From: an uncultured Micrococcales bacterium
GTDB taxonomy: Bacteria; Actinomycetota; Actinomycetes; Actinomycetales; Microbacteriaceae
Reading direction: 5' to 3'
Assembly: GCA_903893675.1 (NCBI GenBank)
Contig: CAITNA010000159.1
Location: 1-50,415 of the forward strand
DNA length: 50,415 nt
Shown: positions 6,760 through 24,863 of the stretch, piece by piece
Position numbering within the stretch: the stretch's first letter is position 1
Layout: each line of letters starts with the position of its first letter
Program-made: the position numbers and the translations under genes
Notes under the pieces: generated by a model
Told to the model about the DNA's origin: nothing
Seen by the model: the letters and a program-made list of their open reading frames with translations, nothing else
Databases searched by the model: none

Positions 6760-8626
6760 CCCCGAGCACCTGCGCAACGATGTCTTGCGCAATTGTCTTG
6801 GCATCAAGCCCAACGCGACGCAGAATCTCCGAGCGGCTGGCGTGCTCTAGGAATTCATCTGGCAGACCGAGTTCGTTAAGTGGCGTGTCAATCTGCGCTG
6901 CACGCAAAGTCTGGCGAATTCGAGTTCCGATGCCGCCGACCTTCACGCCATCCTCGATTGAAACCACCAGACGGTGGTTAGCTGAAAGTTCAACGACGCT
7001 AGGGGCAACCGGAACCATCCAGCGTGGGTCGATGACTGTCGCGCCAATGCCCTGCGCTGCGAGCAAACCAGCAACCTCGAGAGCGGTCGTTGCCATCGAA
7101 CCGACCGGGATCAGCAGAACATCTTTGGCAGCAGACTCAAGCAAGACATCAACACCGTCGCTGGTGCGTCGAATAGCCGGGATGTCGGAACCAACCGACC
7201 CCTTGCCGAAGCGAATCATGGTCGGAGCGTCATCAACGGCAATTGCCTCACCGAGAAGCTCGCGCAGGCGCGACTCATCACGAGGTGAAGCCATGCGGAT
7301 GTTTGGCACGACCTGGAACAGCGCAAGGTCCCACTGACCGTGGTGGCTTGCGCCATCGGGGCCGGTGACACCCGCACGATCGAGCACGAAGGTAACGCCC
7401 TCTTTGTGCAGAGCGACATCCATGAGCACCTGATCAAGGGCGCGGTTCATGAAGGTGGCATACACAGCAACAACTGGGTGCAGGCCACCAAAGGCCATGC
7501 CTGCCGCCGAAGTGACTGCGTGCTGCTCGGCGATGCCGACATCGAAGGTGCGGTCAGGGAACCGCTTTGCAAATTGCGCAAAGCCAACCGGGTTGAGCAT
7601 GGCGCCGGTAATGGCAACTACTCGGCCATTCGCCTCGCCCTGCTTGAGGAGCTCATCGCCAAAGACCTTTGTCCACGAGTTGGTCGATTCCTCGAGCGAT
7701 TCACCGGTCTCTGGGTTAATCTGACCAACCGCGTGAAACTGGTCAGCCTCGTTTAGAACGGCTGGGTCGTAGCCCTTGCCCTTCTGGGTGATGACGTGAA
7801 CGATCACTGGATAGGCGTAGTTCTTGGCCTGCTGAAGAGCCGTTTCAACCTGCTCGAGGTTGTGACCATCAATCGGGCCAATGTATTTCAGGTCGAGATT
7901 CGGGAACATCGACTTCGGGGTAGTCGCGTTGAACAGCCCCTTGCCTGCGCCGCGAGCCACGTTCCAGGCCATGCGACCGAGCGGGCCGAACTTGGCGAAG
8001 ACGTCGCGGCTCAGTCGATAGAGCTTGCGGTAAGACTGCTGAGTGCGAATGCCGTTTAGGGTGCGAGCAAGGCCACCGATGGTAGGTGCATAGCTGCGGC
8101 CGTTGTCGTTCACGATGATCACCAAGCGACGATTGTTATCGTGCGAGATGTTATTGAGCGCCTCCCAAGCCATGCCGCCGGTGAGAGCGCCGTCGCCAAT
8201 TACAGCGACAACGAAGCGTTCATCCTGGCCAGTGATTCGATAGGCCTTGGCGATTCCGTCTGCCCATGAAAGCGACGAGGATGCGTGTGACGACTCAACG
8301 ATGTCGTGAACGCTCTCGGAGCGCTGCGGGTAACCAGCGATGCCGTCTCTTTGTCGCAGATTCGAAAAGTCCTTGCGACCAGTGAGCAACTTGTGCACAT
8401 AACTCTGGTGACCGGTGTCGAAAATGAAGCTATCTTTCGGCGACTCGAACACTCGATGCATCGCAATCGTGGTTTCGACTACACCTAGGTTTGGCCCGAG
8501 GTGACCACCGGTCTTTGAAACCGATGAGATCAGATAGGCACGGATGTCGGCAGCCAACTCGATCAGGTCGGCCTGACTGAGACCCTTGAGGTCGTCAGGT
8601 CCGTTTACTCCATCGAGAATGGTCAT
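6692..8626 (-). CDS. dxs: 1-deoxy-D-xylulose-5-phosphate synthase
   Basis: 644 aa; GHLGPNLGVVETTIAMHRVFESPKDSFIFDTGHQSYVHKLLTGR, VIGDGALTGGMAWEALNN, GIAEQHAVTSAAGMA. Confidence 0.97.
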   Translation of the reverse strand: MTILDGVNGPDDLKGLSQADLIELAADIRAYLISSVSKTGGHLGPNLGVVETTIAMHRVFESPKDSFIFDTGHQSYVHKLLTGRKDFSNLRQRDGIAGYPQRSESVHDIVESSHASSSLSWADGIAKAYRITGQDERFVVAVIGDGALTGGMAWEALNNISHDNNRRLVIIVNDNGRSYAPTIGGLARTLNGIRTQQSYRKLYRLSRDVFAKFGPLGRMAWNVARGAGKGLFNATTPKSMFPNLDLKYIGPIDGHNLEQVETALQQAKNYAYPVIVHVITQKGKGYDPAVLNEADQFHAVGQINPETGESLEESTNSWTKVFGDELLKQGEANGRVVAITGAMLNPVGFAQFAKRFPDRTFDVGIAEQHAVTSAAGMAFGGLHPVVAVYATFMNRALDQVLMDVALHKEGVTFVLDRAGVTGPDGASHHGQWDLALFQVVPNIRMASPRDESRLRELLGEAIAVDDAPTMIRFGKGSVGSDIPAIRRTSDGVDVLLESAAKDVLLIPVGSMATTALEVAGLLAAQGIGATVIDPRWMVPVAPSVVELSANHRLVVSIEDGVKVGGIGTRIRQTLRAAQIDTPLNELGLPDEFLEHASRSEILRRVGLDAKTIAQDIVAQVLGAKVPYARALDESVPRQPSESQQ

Positions 8627-18703: not shown

Positions 18704-20785
18704 CTATGCGTCGATGCGCTCGCGCTCGAAGCTATCTGCCGAATCAATGATGAAGTCGCGACGTGGTGCGACCTCATTGCCCATCAATAGTTCGAAGACC
18801 TTGTCGGCCTGCTCGGCCTGTTCCATGCGCACGCGGCGCAGGGTGCGGTGTGAGCGGTCCATGGTGGTCTCTGCCAACTGGTCGGCATCCATCTCGCCCA
18901 AGCCCTTATAACGCTGAATAGGGTCTTTATAGCGCTTTCCGGCCTTCTCGAGTTTCACCAAAAGCTGTTCGAGCTCTTGCTGCGAGTAGGTGTAGAGCAC
19001 GTCGTTGGCCTTGGATCCAGGGTTGATGACCTCGACTCGGTGCAGTGGCGGTACGGCAGCGAACACACGACCATCTTCGATTAGCGGGCGCATGTAGCGG
19101 TAGATCAGGGTCAGCAGAAGCGTGCGGATGTGCGCACCGTCAACATCGGCATCGCTCATCAAAATGATTTTTCCGTAGCGAGCCAGGTCGAGATCGAAGC
19201 TGCGACCGCTGCCTGCACCAACCACCTGAATAATCGAGGCACACTCGGCGTTAGAAAGCATGTCTGAAACCGAGGCCTTCTGCACGTTCAAAATCTTGCC
19301 TCGAATTGGCAGCACGGCCTGGAACTCGCTGTTGCGGGCAAGCTTCACGGTGCCGAGCGCGGAGTCACCCTCGACGATAAACAGCTCGCTATCGGCTGTG
19401 TCGGTGGTGCGACAGTCAACCAACTTGGTCGGAAGCGACGATGACTCGAGCGCGTTCTTGCGACGCTGAGTCTCTTTGTGAGCGCGAGCCGAAATTCGCG
19501 ACTTCATCTCGGCGACAATTTTGTCGAACAAAATCGCGGTCTGTGCCTTGTCGTCACGCTTTGAGCTGTTGATGCGATCGGTCAACGTCTTGGTAACCAC
19601 GTTTGCCACGATGTTGCGAACGGCCGGGGTGCCGAGAACCTCTTTGGTCTGACCCTCGAATTGCGGCTCGGCAAGACGCACGGTTACAACGGTGGTGAGA
19701 CCCGCAAGGATGTCTTCTTTCTCAACCTTGTCGTTGCCAGCCTTGAGCTTGCGTGCATTCGCCTCGATGTGACCACGGATGGTCTTCAGCAGCGCCTGCT
19801 CGAAACCGGCGATGTGGCTTCCGCCTTTGGGAGTCGAGATGATGTTCACGAAGGACTTCACGACGGTGTCGTAACCACTGCCCCAGCGAACCGCGATGTC
19901 TACCTCACAGTTGCGCGAAACTTCGCGGCTGACCATGTTGCCCGATTCATCGAGAACCGGAATGGTCTCGGTGAATTCGCCAGAACCGCTGAGTCTCCAG
20001 GTGCTGGTGATTGGGTTATCGCTTGCGAGATAGTTAGCAAATTCGACGATGCCGCCGGCGAAGCGGAAATCTTGTTTGGTTGATTTGCCATCGCGCTGAT
20101 CGTCGACGGTGATGCCTAGACCTGGCACCAGGAATGCGGTCTGACGAGCACGAGCGGCCAGCTCATCGATGCTGAATTGGGCATCCTTGACGAAAATTTG
20201 CGGGTCTGTCCAATAGCGAACTCGAGTGCCGGTAACGCCCTTTGGTGCCTTGCCGATTACTCGAAGTTCGCTGGCATCTTCGAATGGCTTGAATGGGTTG
20301 CCAGGCTTGATGCCCTTTGAGTCATCGAAGTTGCCCGGCTCGCCGCGGCGGAACGACATGGCATAGGTCTTGCCGTCGCGATCGACTTCAACGTCGAGTC
20401 GCTCGCTAAGGGCGTTAACTACGGATGCACCAACACCGTGCAGACCACCTGATGCCGCGTATGAGCCACTGCCGAACTTGCCACCCGCGTGCAGCTTGGT
20501 GAAAACTACCTCGACACCGGTCAGACCGGTCTTTGGCTCGATGTCTACTGGGATGCCTCGGGCCTTGTCGCGAACCTCGACGCTGCCGTCTTTGTGCAGG
20601 GTGACGTCGATCTGGCTTCCGTGACCGGCTAGGGCTTCGTCAACTGAGTTGTCGATGATCTCCCAGACGCAGTGCATCAAACCGCGCGAATCGGTCGAGC
20701 CGATGTACATTCCAGGGCGTTTGCGAACGGCCTCTAGCCCCTCTAGAACAGAGAGATGACGGGCTGAGTACTCGCTTTTAGACAC
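18704..20785 (-). CDS. parE: DNA topoisomerase IV / gyrase subunit B family protein
   Basis: 693 aa; VRKRPGMYIGSTDSRGLMHCVWEIIDNSVDEALAG, GGLHGVGASVVNALS, IVEGDSALGTVKLARN, MSDADVDGAHIRTLLLT. Confidence 0.95.
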   Translation of the reverse strand: MSKSEYSARHLSVLEGLEAVRKRPGMYIGSTDSRGLMHCVWEIIDNSVDEALAGHGSQIDVTLHKDGSVEVRDKARGIPVDIEPKTGLTGVEVVFTKLHAGGKFGSGSYAASGGLHGVGASVVNALSERLDVEVDRDGKTYAMSFRRGEPGNFDDSKGIKPGNPFKPFEDASELRVIGKAPKGVTGTRVRYWTDPQIFVKDAQFSIDELAARARQTAFLVPGLGITVDDQRDGKSTKQDFRFAGGIVEFANYLASDNPITSTWRLSGSGEFTETIPVLDESGNMVSREVSRNCEVDIAVRWGSGYDTVVKSFVNIISTPKGGSHIAGFEQALLKTIRGHIEANARKLKAGNDKVEKEDILAGLTTVVTVRLAEPQFEGQTKEVLGTPAVRNIVANVVTKTLTDRINSSKRDDKAQTAILFDKIVAEMKSRISARAHKETQRRKNALESSSLPTKLVDCRTTDTADSELFIVEGDSALGTVKLARNSEFQAVLPIRGKILNVQKASVSDMLSNAECASIIQVVGAGSGRSFDLDLARYGKIILMSDADVDGAHIRTLLLTLIYRYMRPLIEDGRVFAAVPPLHRVEVINPGSKANDVLYTYSQQELEQLLVKLEKAGKRYKDPIQRYKGLGEMDADQLAETTMDRSHRTLRRVRMEQAEQADKVFELLMGNEVAPRRDFIIDSADSFERERIDA

Positions 20786-20937: not shown

Positions 20938-21156
20938 ATGTCTACTGCTGAACTTGAGAACGAAACCGAAACTCCACGTGAGTTGAACGCACTTGACCGC
21001 TGCGACATCTGTGGCGCTCAGGCTTATGTGCGAGTCGAATTGTCGACCGGTGAGCTTCTCTTCTGTGCACACCACGCTGCCGAAAAGCGCGCTGCCATCG
21101 AGCCGATCGCAATCGCCTGGCACGACGAGACGTCGAAGCTCGAGTCTTCTAAATAA
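20938..21156 (+). CDS. DUF7455 family small zinc-binding-like protein
   Basis: 72 aa; LDRCDICGAQAYVRVELSTGELLFCAHHAAEKRAAIEPIA; position next to parE and sigA. Confidence 0.8.
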   Translation: MSTAELENETETPRELNALDRCDICGAQAYVRVELSTGELLFCAHHAAEKRAAIEPIAIAWHDETSKLESSK

Positions 21157-21159
21157 TTT

Positions 21160-21795
21160 CTAACCCGCCGCGATTTCAGTGGCGAGCTCAATCGCTGCCT
21201 TTGACAGCGTTGCAACCTGACTAAAACGCTTGGCGTTTATTTCGCCGCGAGACTCTTTGAGCTCAGGTCGTTGAGCAACCACACTGCCCAAAATCTTGTC
21301 TGCTAGCCAGATGTTTTTTGCGAGCAACGGACCATGAAGAAGAGAACCGATCAGATTCCCTTGGATGTGCAGGTTCTCAAGAGCCAGATCGCTGTTCTTG
21401 TAGCCTGCGAGCACTTGGCCCTCAAAATCTTCAACGATGAAATTTGAGAATCGCTCATCCAAGCGCTCGATTTTGGCCGGCAGAGAACCAAAGAGCCCGT
21501 GCAGCGCGGCGAAACCACTGCTAATCGCGATCAACTGCGTGCCCTCCAGCAGCCACTGCTCCAAAGTCGCCGACACTGCTTTGAGCGCCGGATAGGCCTG
21601 ACGCCAGGCAGCAGCAGAGCCGTGCCCAATCAAGACAACATCTGGGCGAACCGAAGGCAAGTTAGCGCCAAGCGCAAGCTTCTCGAGCGAGACGGCAAGT
21701 CCACCCCACTGCGCTCTGCGCTGCAGAATGAGCAAGTTGCCGGCATCGCCATTCAGGTCTAGGTGATCCGGGTAGAGCTGCAGGAGACGAATCAT
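21160..21795 (-). CDS. GatD-like type 1 glutamine amidotransferase subunit (lipid II isoglutaminyl synthase family), nucleophile Cys replaced by Ser
   Basis: 211 aa; LYPDHLDLNGDAGNLLILQRRAQWGGL and GSLLHGPLLAKNIWLAD match GatD; nucleophile elbow is AISSGFAAL (Ser92) instead of A-x-C-G-G-Y/F-Q. Confidence 0.85.
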   Translation of the reverse strand: MIRLLQLYPDHLDLNGDAGNLLILQRRAQWGGLAVSLEKLALGANLPSVRPDVVLIGHGSAAAWRQAYPALKAVSATLEQWLLEGTQLIAISSGFAALHGLFGSLPAKIERLDERFSNFIVEDFEGQVLAGYKNSDLALENLHIQGNLIGSLLHGPLLAKNIWLADKILGSVVAQRPELKESRGEINAKRFSQVATLSKAAIELATEIAAG

Positions 21796-23054
21796 CGAGC
21801 CACCTCGTTCGGGCTAGTGAAACCTAGGTGGCGACGAAGGCGACGCATTGCATCGGCACTGAACACCACGGTGCGAATTCCCGACTTTGGCTCCGGCAAA
21901 GCCAAGAACTTATCAATCGCTGCGAACAGATCGGGCTCGACGTCATCGACCTCAATGTTGTCGTAAACCAAACGCAGGCCGAGCTCGGCGTAGTTGTAGC
22001 CGCTGATGATGTCTACGTGCTCGAGTCTCGAAAGGTCGACTGTCCACATCCAGGATGGATCGTGCACGTCTCGCCCAATGGCGATCATGAGGCGGTCAAG
22101 TGGCAATTCGAGGTTGTCGAGATTGAGTTGGAACGAGGTCGGGTTCTGCACCAAGACGAACTCCACCTGCTTGCCCTGAATCTCAACGATCTCGCCTCGT
22201 GCGAAAACCGGAGGCAGCTCGGCCATGACCTTCTCGGCGAGCTCGAGGTTGAATTCGTCGCCGAGCAATTCACGCGCGGTCGAAATTGCAGCAACAGCAT
22301 CCAAGGCATAGTGAGCACCGCGGTTTGGCAATTCGAAGATCATCTCGCGGTCGCCAAGTTTGACCATGCAGCGACGATCGTTAAGCGAAACAACTTCGGC
22401 AGAAACCCTTGGTCGAGCCATCGGCTTGAGATAAGTCGGGGCAACGCCGAGGTCATCGCCTTGAAGCACGTCTTCAGCGATTCCGAAGTAGCTCTTCTCA
22501 GGCGACTGAATTTCTGCATCGATCAACAAGATGTTCTGATCATCGGCATTCAACAAAACGCTCTGAGTTGCGCGGGCGGCAACATTTGCGAGCTTCTCGC
22601 GAACGAGAGCCGGGTCGATGAAACGGTCGAGCTGATCCTCGAGAACGTTGAGCAACGTGACCAAACGTGGGGCGACTTCTGCACTTAGGGTGTCTGCGTG
22701 AGCCTCATCGACTTCGAGAATTGCGATGTCGCCGGGAATCTTTCCGAACAGGTTGCTCTGCTCAACAATCGAAGAGAAGAATCCCTGACGAATGTTTGCT
22801 GTTGTCGGGTTGGTGAAAACCTCGAGTCCGTGTGCGCGGGCAATCGCAACAACCATCTTTGTGGTTGTCGATTTGCCGGCCGAGCCGGTAATGATGACCA
22901 GGCCCTGTGGGAACGAACCCAGGGTCTTGGCGAGCAGACCAGGCGCTAACTTGCTTAGCAGCAAGCCCGGAGCGGCAGAGCCACCACCTGGACGAAAGCG
23001 TCTTATGGCCTTTCGTGCCAAGCGACTGATCAGGATCGCAGGCAGGTAAAACAC
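21792..23054 (-). CDS. MurT-like Mur ligase family protein lacking the zinc ribbon
   Basis: 420 aa; VIITGSAGKSTTTKM, FTNPTTANIRQGFFSSIV, ILEVDEAHADTLSAEVAPRLVTLLNVLEDQLDR, LNADD, FARGE; 4-nt overlap with GatD-like gene; only one Cys in the whole protein. Confidence 0.88.
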   Translation of the reverse strand: MFYLPAILISRLARKAIRRFRPGGGSAAPGLLLSKLAPGLLAKTLGSFPQGLVIITGSAGKSTTTKMVVAIARAHGLEVFTNPTTANIRQGFFSSIVEQSNLFGKIPGDIAILEVDEAHADTLSAEVAPRLVTLLNVLEDQLDRFIDPALVREKLANVAARATQSVLLNADDQNILLIDAEIQSPEKSYFGIAEDVLQGDDLGVAPTYLKPMARPRVSAEVVSLNDRRCMVKLGDREMIFELPNRGAHYALDAVAAISTARELLGDEFNLELAEKVMAELPPVFARGEIVEIQGKQVEFVLVQNPTSFQLNLDNLELPLDRLMIAIGRDVHDPSWMWTVDLSRLEHVDIISGYNYAELGLRLVYDNIEVDDVEPDLFAAIDKFLALPEPKSGIRTVVFSADAMRRLRRHLGFTSPNEVAR

Positions 23055-23057
23055 TTT

Positions 23058-24863
23058 TTAGAGAACATCCATGAAGTCGCGCAGCAACTGAGCACGCGAT
23101 GGGTGCTGCAGCTTCTGCATGGTCTTTGATTCAATCTGGCGGATGCGCTCGCGAGTTACGCCGAGCTCTTCACCGATCTGGTCGAGAGTCTTCGCGATGC
23201 CATCGACCAAGCCGTAACGCGACTTGATGACCTTCGCTTCACGCTCGGTAAGCCCCTGGAGCAGGCGCTCGATGGCCTCGTTGCGAGCACGGGTAACCGA
23301 TGCCTCGACCGGCGAAACGGCCTCGACGTCTTCGATGAGGTCACCGAACTCGCTGTCGCCGTCTTCGCCCAGAGGGGTAGACAGCGAAATCGGTTCGCGA
23401 CCATACTTCTGAACCTCGACAACCTTTTCAGGGGTCATGTCGAGTTCGTGCGCTAGCTCTTCAGGGGTCGGTTCGCGACCGAGGTCCTGCAGAAGTTGGC
23501 GCTGAACACGCGAAAGCTTGTTGATCACTTCAACCATGTGAACCGGGATGCGGATTGTGCGAGCCTGGTCTGCCATCGCACGAGTAATCGCCTGGCGAAT
23601 CCACCAGGTTGCGTAGGTCGAGAACTTGAAGCCCTTGGTGTAGTCGAACTTCTCGACCGCGCGAATCAGACCGAGGTTTCCTTCTTGGATAAGGTCAAGG
23701 AACTGCATGCCTCGACCGGTGTAACGCTTTGCGAGCGAAACCACGAGACGAAGGTTCGCCTCGAGCAGGTGGGCCTTCGCGCGTCGACCATCCTTGACGA
23801 CCCACTTCAGGTCTTCGGTCATGGTCTTGCTAAGACGCTTGTCGGTGGCCAGCTTCTCTTCTGCGAATAGACCGGCTTCGATGCGCATTGCGAGGTCGAC
23901 CTCGAGCTCTGCGTTTAGAAGTGCAACCTTTCCGATCTGCTTCAGGTAGTCCTTAACAGAGTCGTTAGTCGCTCCTGGAATTGCGATGGTTTGAATCGCA
24001 ATGTCGTCTTCTTTGTTCTTGAAGAGCAAGACACCTTCAGGGTGCTCGTCTTCATCTTCTTCGTCGTCTTCGACAACTAGAGGAACAGCGGCAGCTGCCT
24101 CTGCGACAATCTCTTCGACCGCGAGGTCATCGCCATCGACGACTACAACTTCGTCATCTAGCTCTTCGTCGTCTTCAGGAAGATCTGAACCCTTGCCACC
24201 CTTGACTGCTTTGGCAGGCTTTGCCTTGCCGGCTGGCTTTACAGCCGGGCCGGTGCTCTTTGGAGCGTTGGCAGCAGGCTTCGCAGCCTTGGCGTCTTTT
24301 GCGGCAGGCTTCGCAGCCTTAGCAGGGGCCTTCGCCGCTGGCTTTGCAGCCTTTGCTGCCGGTTTAGCGGCTGGCTTTGCGGCAGCTTTAGCAGTCGGCT
24401 TGGCCGCTGGCTTAGCAGCGCCCTTCGCGGGCGCCTTGGCAGCAGGCTTAGCCGCGACCTTCGCGGCCGGTTTGGCGGCTGGCTTGACTGAGGTCTTAGC
24501 TGCAGGCTTTGCAGGCGTCTTGGCCGCTGGCTTTGCTGCTGGCTTGGCGGTTGCCTTAGGGGCTGGCTTAGCGGCGGCCTTGGCTACTGACTTGGCCGGA
24601 GTCTTGGCTGCAGGCTTTGCCACTGGCTTGGCCGGAGTCTTCGCAGGAGTCTTCGCCGCAGGCTTTGCCGCGGTCTTCGCGGCTGGCTTGGCGGCTGGCT
24701 TTGCTGCGGCCTTCACGGCTGGCTTAGCCGCAGGCTTTGCGACTGGCTTGGTGCTCTTCGGTGCTGAAGCTGAAATGGTCTTTCCCTTATCTGGTGCCGA
24801 CTTAGCCTTGCTTCCACCCAGGAGGCCGCTCAGGAATCCGCGCTTGTTACTCGGCTGAGCCAT
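23058..24863 (-). CDS. sigA: RNA polymerase primary sigma factor (SigA/HrdB type) with long Lys/Pro/Ala-rich N-terminal tail
   Basis: 601 aa; [88 protein letters not shown]. Confidence 0.97.
24210..24760 (-). repeat. In-gene repeat encoding (K)PAAKPAAK-type low-complexity tail of sigA
   Basis: Reiterated [15 protein letters not shown] units on the minus strand (ggctggcttag/tgcaggctt variants on plus). Confidence 0.85.

Follow-up and report, generated by a model that had tools for sequence, protein, structure and literature searches.

The window analysed here, a 50,415-nucleotide stretch of DNA from an uncultured Micrococcales bacterium of the family Microbacteriaceae, encodes a MurT/GatD pair whose GatD homologue (GatD*) has no catalytic cysteine. 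Judged by comparison with its relatives, this loss is the signature of a family-wide pseudo-glutaminase complex that is defined by synteny. We propose that MurT/GatD* probably ligates a bridge amino acid (e.g., D-Dab or D-Orn) to the alpha-carboxyl of D-Glu2, a reaction that would start group-B cross-linking. The genes and codons concerned are as follows:

23058..24863, minus strand: sigA-type primary sigma factor gene (named from its sequence), upstream border of the slot
21792..23054, minus strand: murT homologue encoding 420 aa, with a P-loop-bearing Mur-ligase central domain and the MurT C-terminal domain
22134..22136, minus strand: codon of MurT Ser residue 307 (S305 in the clade-comparison numbering)
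22122..22124, minus strand: codon of residue 311, an Asn, in the 420-aa MurT ORF (N309 in the clade-comparison numbering)
21160..21795, minus strand: gatD homologue (GatD*), 211 aa, ATG start, class I GATase fold without the catalytic Cys
21751..21753, minus strand: codon of Asn15, equivalent to the conserved Tyr (Tyr30 of S. pneumoniae GatD)
21745..21747, minus strand: codon of Asp17, equivalent to the triad Asp32 of S. pneumoniae GatD, retained
21520..21522, minus strand: Ser92 codon (AGC), where S. aureus GatD has its nucleophile Cys94
21334..21336, minus strand: codon of His154, equivalent to the catalytic His189 of S. aureus GatD, retained
20938..21156, plus strand: 72-aa CxxC protein, downstream border of the slot
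18704..20785, minus strand: parE/gyrB-type topoisomerase subunit (named from its sequence), far border of the slot

Despite its distance from characterized homologues at the sequence level (54 bits to the NCBIfam GatD equivalog, far under the cut-off of 450), GatD* is recognizable by its fold. The top nine PDB matches of its AlphaFold2 model (pLDDT 92), including 6h5e, 5n9m, 6gs2, 6fqb and 9sq9/9sqj, are all GatD subunits of MurT/GatD (Foldseek E 1e-9 to 1e-11, TM 0.69-0.78 on query length). In the model, Ser92 is preceded by a strand (E87-91) and followed by a helix (H93-101), the arrangement of a nucleophile elbow. The whole 211-aa protein contains zero cysteines, which rules out another cysteine as the nucleophile. 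A sequence-only reading of this stretch had described a GatD homologue without its catalytic Cys, with the His kept, short, and overlapping murT by 4 nt. These observations hold: the overlap is real (ATGA), Asp17 is kept along with His154, and most relatives are ~240-250 aa in length. The partner MurT scores above the cut-offs for its two domains (Mur_ligase_M 33.2 bits against 24; MurT_C 25.4 bits against 25) and at 83 bits against a cut-off of 800 for the NCBIfam MurT equivalog. Its model (pLDDT 91.5) matches MurT first in the PDB, followed by pseudomurein ligases and MurF.

We read 91 MurT/GatD pairs from Microbacteriaceae and added named and order-level outgroups. The window GatD belongs to a 57-member Microbacteriaceae MurT/GatD clade (clade B), sister to the canonical Cys-bearing complexes. 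Cys occupies the nucleophile position in none of the 57 rows, where the residues are Gly (36), Ala (13), Ser (4), Asn (3) and Thr (1), vs. Cys in 56/56 canonical rows of the main alignment and in all of the ~35 GatDs read across nine further families in the order. On the 131-row MurT tree (support 99-100), two changes suffice to explain Cys status. Within clade B, the nucleophile residue changes at least 14 times and never back to Cys, and the catalytic His, still present in the window protein, has been lost repeatedly and is missing in 21/57 members. Amnibacterium setariae (G157) is the only Microbacteriaceae clade-B genome named among the matches listed.

A second Cys-less clade (18 rows, with His, Gly or Asn at the site) comprises other Microbacteriaceae and Clostridia, and the 30 best-matching further clostridial loci have Gly (29) or Asn (1) at this position. 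Cys-less GatD accompanied by a ribbon-bearing MurT is common in Clostridia (L128, L143, L146, L148 and all 30 of the best-matching loci, L312-L341). Among the 50 loci read from Bacilli, Cys was present in every GatD found; five loci (L273, L277, L280, L282, L283) carry murT genes with no GatD found adjoining.

The sequence-only reading had asked whether a sequencing error at 21520-21522 could account for the serine, and whether Cys-to-Ser is fixed in a clade. An error is ruled out by the absence of Cys from all four genomes of the window's genus, which have Ser, Ala, Asn and Asn at the site, and from 57/57 members of the clade. The serine is likewise not fixed, as the site drifts among Gly, Ala, Ser, Asn and Thr. 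Because the site is variable clade-wide, the gatD* ORF is intact in 57/57 members and even the genus differs at this position, the alignments identify the window GatD* as a member of a pseudo-glutaminase lineage and not as a Cys-to-Ser replacement. Overall, the earlier interpretation is partly supported.

The change extends beyond the nucleophile. The GatD channel-plug residue, Tyr in canonical GatD, is mostly Asn in clade B, and Tyr30 of S. pneumoniae GatD has been described as an ammonia-channel plug. In MurT, the channel-loop Arg (R133 of S. aureus) is replaced by Val or Ile in clade B. New residues have been gained at the same time: N309 is invariant in 57/57 clade-B members and differs from the canonical residue, S305 (98% of clade B) replaces the Gly of the canonical NPxG motif, and H246 (98%), Q88, D250 and others are further gains. 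MurT retains an Asp at the position of S. aureus D349, which counts against reading the complex as a bridge ligase. The window MurT also lacks the zinc-ribbon CxxC pair. We considered ribbon loss as a diagnostic of the Cys-less change and rejected it, as canonical Arthrobacter-type MurT/GatD also lack the ribbon.

Clade-B complexes occupy a constant genomic position. The slot begins with sigA, continues with murT-gatD* on the same strand and then the opposite-strand gene for a small CxxC protein (in the window, presumably DUF7455-like), and ends with parE. The window sigA encodes a long N-terminal Lys/Ala/Pro-rich low-complexity extension. This sigA-parE slot holds the complex in 52 of the 53 clade-B loci with enough flanking sequence, and also in 10/10 loci of the Microbacteriaceae members of the second Cys-less clade (H-type complexes). 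Canonical Cys-type complexes were found there in 0/14 cases in Microbacteriaceae and 0/~30 elsewhere, and the slot is empty in 8/8 Microbacteriaceae with a canonical pair only. The occupation of one slot by two independent Cys-less complexes is hard to explain unless the slot requires a glutaminase-dead state.

Some Microbacteriaceae have no MurT. The first genome census considered just the best candidates in each genome, and MurT absence was verified at the slot in 12 genomes. A CofE-like ligase (PF01996) lies in the slot of 10 of these 12, i.e., in 10/10 filled slots (L295, L296, L301, L302, L305, L307-L311). This protein is only distantly related to the CofE-type F420 gamma-glutamyl ligases (35 bits to the CofE equivalog, whose cut-off is 181) and its fold is unrelated to that of MurT; its location suggests an analogous role, and the set of genes around it is apparently an unstudied alternative bridge cassette. 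With such cassettes in MurT-less genomes, one gene explaining the Cys loss across all of group B is too simple an account. Two MurT-less genomes with an empty slot (G051, G019) count against the bridge-ligase reading, and a simple form of that reading does not explain the four genomes (G054, G066, G122, G162) that encode both canonical Cys-type and clade-B complexes.

The neighbours of the Cys-less complexes suggest amino acids rather than ammonia as substrates. A racemase gene adjoins the complex in 20/68 Cys-less vs. 0/76 Cys loci (Fisher 5e-8, a value that ignores kinship), and racemase state changes at least seven times on the clade-B tree. In each of the five genomes tested, the slot racemase proves to be a second Alr paralogue. 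At one clade-B locus with Ser at the nucleophile position (L045), in a genome that may be Tropheryma whipplei Twist (G015), the sole detected alanine racemase adjoins gatD. Dab transaminase genes adjoin two clade-B loci (L112 and L202), and an ATPgrasp_ST (PF14397) gene is present in 6/10 H-type loci and in two clostridial Cys-less loci. At the clostridial locus L146, an ornithine-racemase-like gene (7091-8020; NCBIfam Orr 366 bits, E 2e-109, under the cut-off of 480) overlaps the 3' end of gatD*, and the related L313 has such a gene too. The CofE-like slots also hold ATPgrasp_ST, alanine-racemase-like and/or Dab transaminase genes, the transaminase of the MurT-less slots scoring 602-603 bits to TIGR02407 (cut-off 552). 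On the other hand, only 19 of the 53 sufficiently flanked clade-B loci have a racemase and the window's own slot has neither racemase nor transaminase, both of which count against the bridge-ligase reading.

In group-B peptidoglycan, the alpha-carboxyl of D-Glu2 is the point from which the bridge is built. This is the carboxyl that MurT/GatD amidates in other bacteria (PMC3266927). The freshwater species Rhodoluna lacicola, a Microbacteriaceae member with a small genome, has peptidoglycan of type B2beta, bridged by D-Ala-D-Dab (PMC4156110), Microbacterium walls contain D-Orn, L-Lys or Dab (PMC10757982), and a genus-level review table lists types A and B2alpha for Eubacterium (PMC11382707). The genomes that we take to be those of Eubacterium limosum ATCC 8486 (G1170) and Acetobacterium woodii DSM 1030 (G877) each encode one full-length MurT and a Cys-to-Gly GatD. 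Both E. limosum and A. woodii have group-B peptidoglycan, as does Erysipelothrix. A-type walls are found in Staphylococcus, Arthrobacter, Kocuria, Bifidobacterium, Corynebacterium, Mycobacterium, Micromonospora and others, and GatD is of the Cys type in all of these. No canonical complex accompanies the Cys-less one in most Microbacteriaceae or in the two clostridial genomes, the four genomes with both types being those named above. An MnmA-like gene that follows gatD* in both of these Clostridia was treated as uninformative. To our knowledge, no group-B enzyme that joins the bridge to D-Glu has been identified; the literature that we searched yielded none, and a search for group-B genes together with GatD/MurT returned nothing.

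From the clade-wide loss of the Cys and of the ammonia-channel residues, the shared slot, its racemase, Dab transaminase and ligase neighbours, the CofE-like replacement and the occurrence in group-B lineages, we infer a substrate, a chemistry and a role for GatD*. MurT would use ATP to activate (phosphorylate) the alpha-carboxyl of D-Glu2 in the lipid-linked stem peptide. The attacking amine would then be that of the interpeptide-bridge amino acid rather than ammonia, the way ordinary Mur ligases work; in the window lineage this amino acid is most likely D-2,4-diaminobutyrate, and elsewhere it could be D-Orn, D-Lys or Gly. GatD* would be a non-catalytic partner that holds MurT active and perhaps lines the amine site, and the bond formed would initiate group-B (2-4) cross-linking.

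The window complex shares the murT-gatD operon, domains and fold with the MurT/GatD isoglutaminyl synthases of S. aureus (6gs2/6h5e), S. pneumoniae (6fqb) and S. pyogenes (9sq9). Unlike these, it lacks the catalytic Cys, has replaced both the channel Tyr and the channel-loop Arg, carries clade-specific MurT residues within a racemase/ligase gene neighbourhood, and has no zinc ribbon (absent from the sister canonical group as well). Without its defining Cys, the complex is not expected to be a working glutamine-dependent synthase, but it belongs to the MurT/GatD superfamily. It probably acts in the manner of a Mur amino-acid ligase. The window MurT would share ATP-dependent carboxyl activation with MurC-MurF and the pseudomurein peptide ligases; unlike these, it has a GatD-like partner and, by homology with MurT, would act on a lipid-linked acceptor at the D-Glu alpha-carboxyl.

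Alternatively, the complex could be an amino-acid ligase for cell-wall precursors that acts away from the D-Glu2 alpha-carboxyl, say at a second residue of the bridge or on a different envelope polymer. The present evidence does not fix the acceptor carboxyl, and the second ligase type in the slot cassettes (ATPgrasp_ST, PF14397) could itself form the first bond. We nevertheless regard this as unlikely, given that canonical MurT homologues act on exactly the alpha-carboxyl of D-Glu2 and that the taxonomic match is with group-B lineages.

A different possibility is that MurT remains an amidating enzyme for D-Glu2 that draws on free ammonia, GatD* serving only as a scaffold. The S. aureus GatD C94G mutant provides the precedent: glutamine-dependent activity is abolished, ammonia-dependent MurT activity is kept and GatD is still required (PMC3266927). 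The commonest clade-B state, Gly, is the same change. The mutant bears out the earlier prediction that ordinary glutamine hydrolysis is unlikely, and from it loss of glutamine-dependent amidation of lipid II at D-Glu2 is expected here as well. In clade B, unlike in this laboratory mutant, the change is natural and fixed; many others have co-evolved with it, and the gene neighbourhood is distinct. MurT with GatD C94G amidated lipid II with NH3 at pH 8.5, but at neutral pH ammonia did not serve as a substrate (PMC3266927). Moreover, clade B has lost the channel residues and fixed new ones in the ligase domain, racemase, Dab-transaminase and amino-acid-ligase genes adjoin the complex, and group-B walls need the D-Glu alpha-carboxyl for the bridge. 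An ammonia-dependent isoglutaminyl synthase therefore appears quite improbable.

Decay of GatD* into a functionless, drifting remnant is very hard to sustain. The nucleophile and His positions do vary freely, and dN/dS of gatD* exceeds that of murT in all pairs bar one near-tie (0.152 vs. 0.149). However, dN/dS of 0.15-0.48 between close Cys-less pairs indicates purifying selection, the ORFs are intact throughout clade B, the slot is constant, two independent Cys-less complexes have been exchanged in situ, and no frequent gatD* loss or frameshift was seen beside intact murT. These results favour the view, already taken from the intact and conserved-looking ORF, that GatD* has a new function. 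A serine-type glutaminase using Ser92, which does lie in the elbow of a protein that retains His154 and Asp17, is extremely improbable when the site is Ala, Asn and Asn in the genus's other genomes and mostly Gly in the family.

Extending the bridge-ligase proposal from the window to the family, we lean towards viewing the sigA-parE slot of Microbacteriaceae as the group-B bridge locus. In this locus, three non-orthologous ligase modules (two glutaminase-dead MurT/GatD lineages and the CofE-like ligase) would interchange, and racemase, Dab-transaminase and ATP-grasp modules would determine the chemistry of the bridge; Cys-less complexes may follow the same logic in group-B Clostridia such as Eubacterium limosum. 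Automatic annotation of such proteins as lipid II isoglutaminyl synthase calls for caution. Actinobacterial taxonomy has for decades relied heavily on peptidoglycan type (group A or B, and the bridge amino acid). If this reading of the slot is true, it names the enzymes that start group-B cross-linking, and the candidate genes, the diagnostic slot and the residue signature would make the enzymology of this cross-link testable. It would also show how an amidotransferase can shed its glutaminase activity yet retain the pseudoenzyme as a partner.
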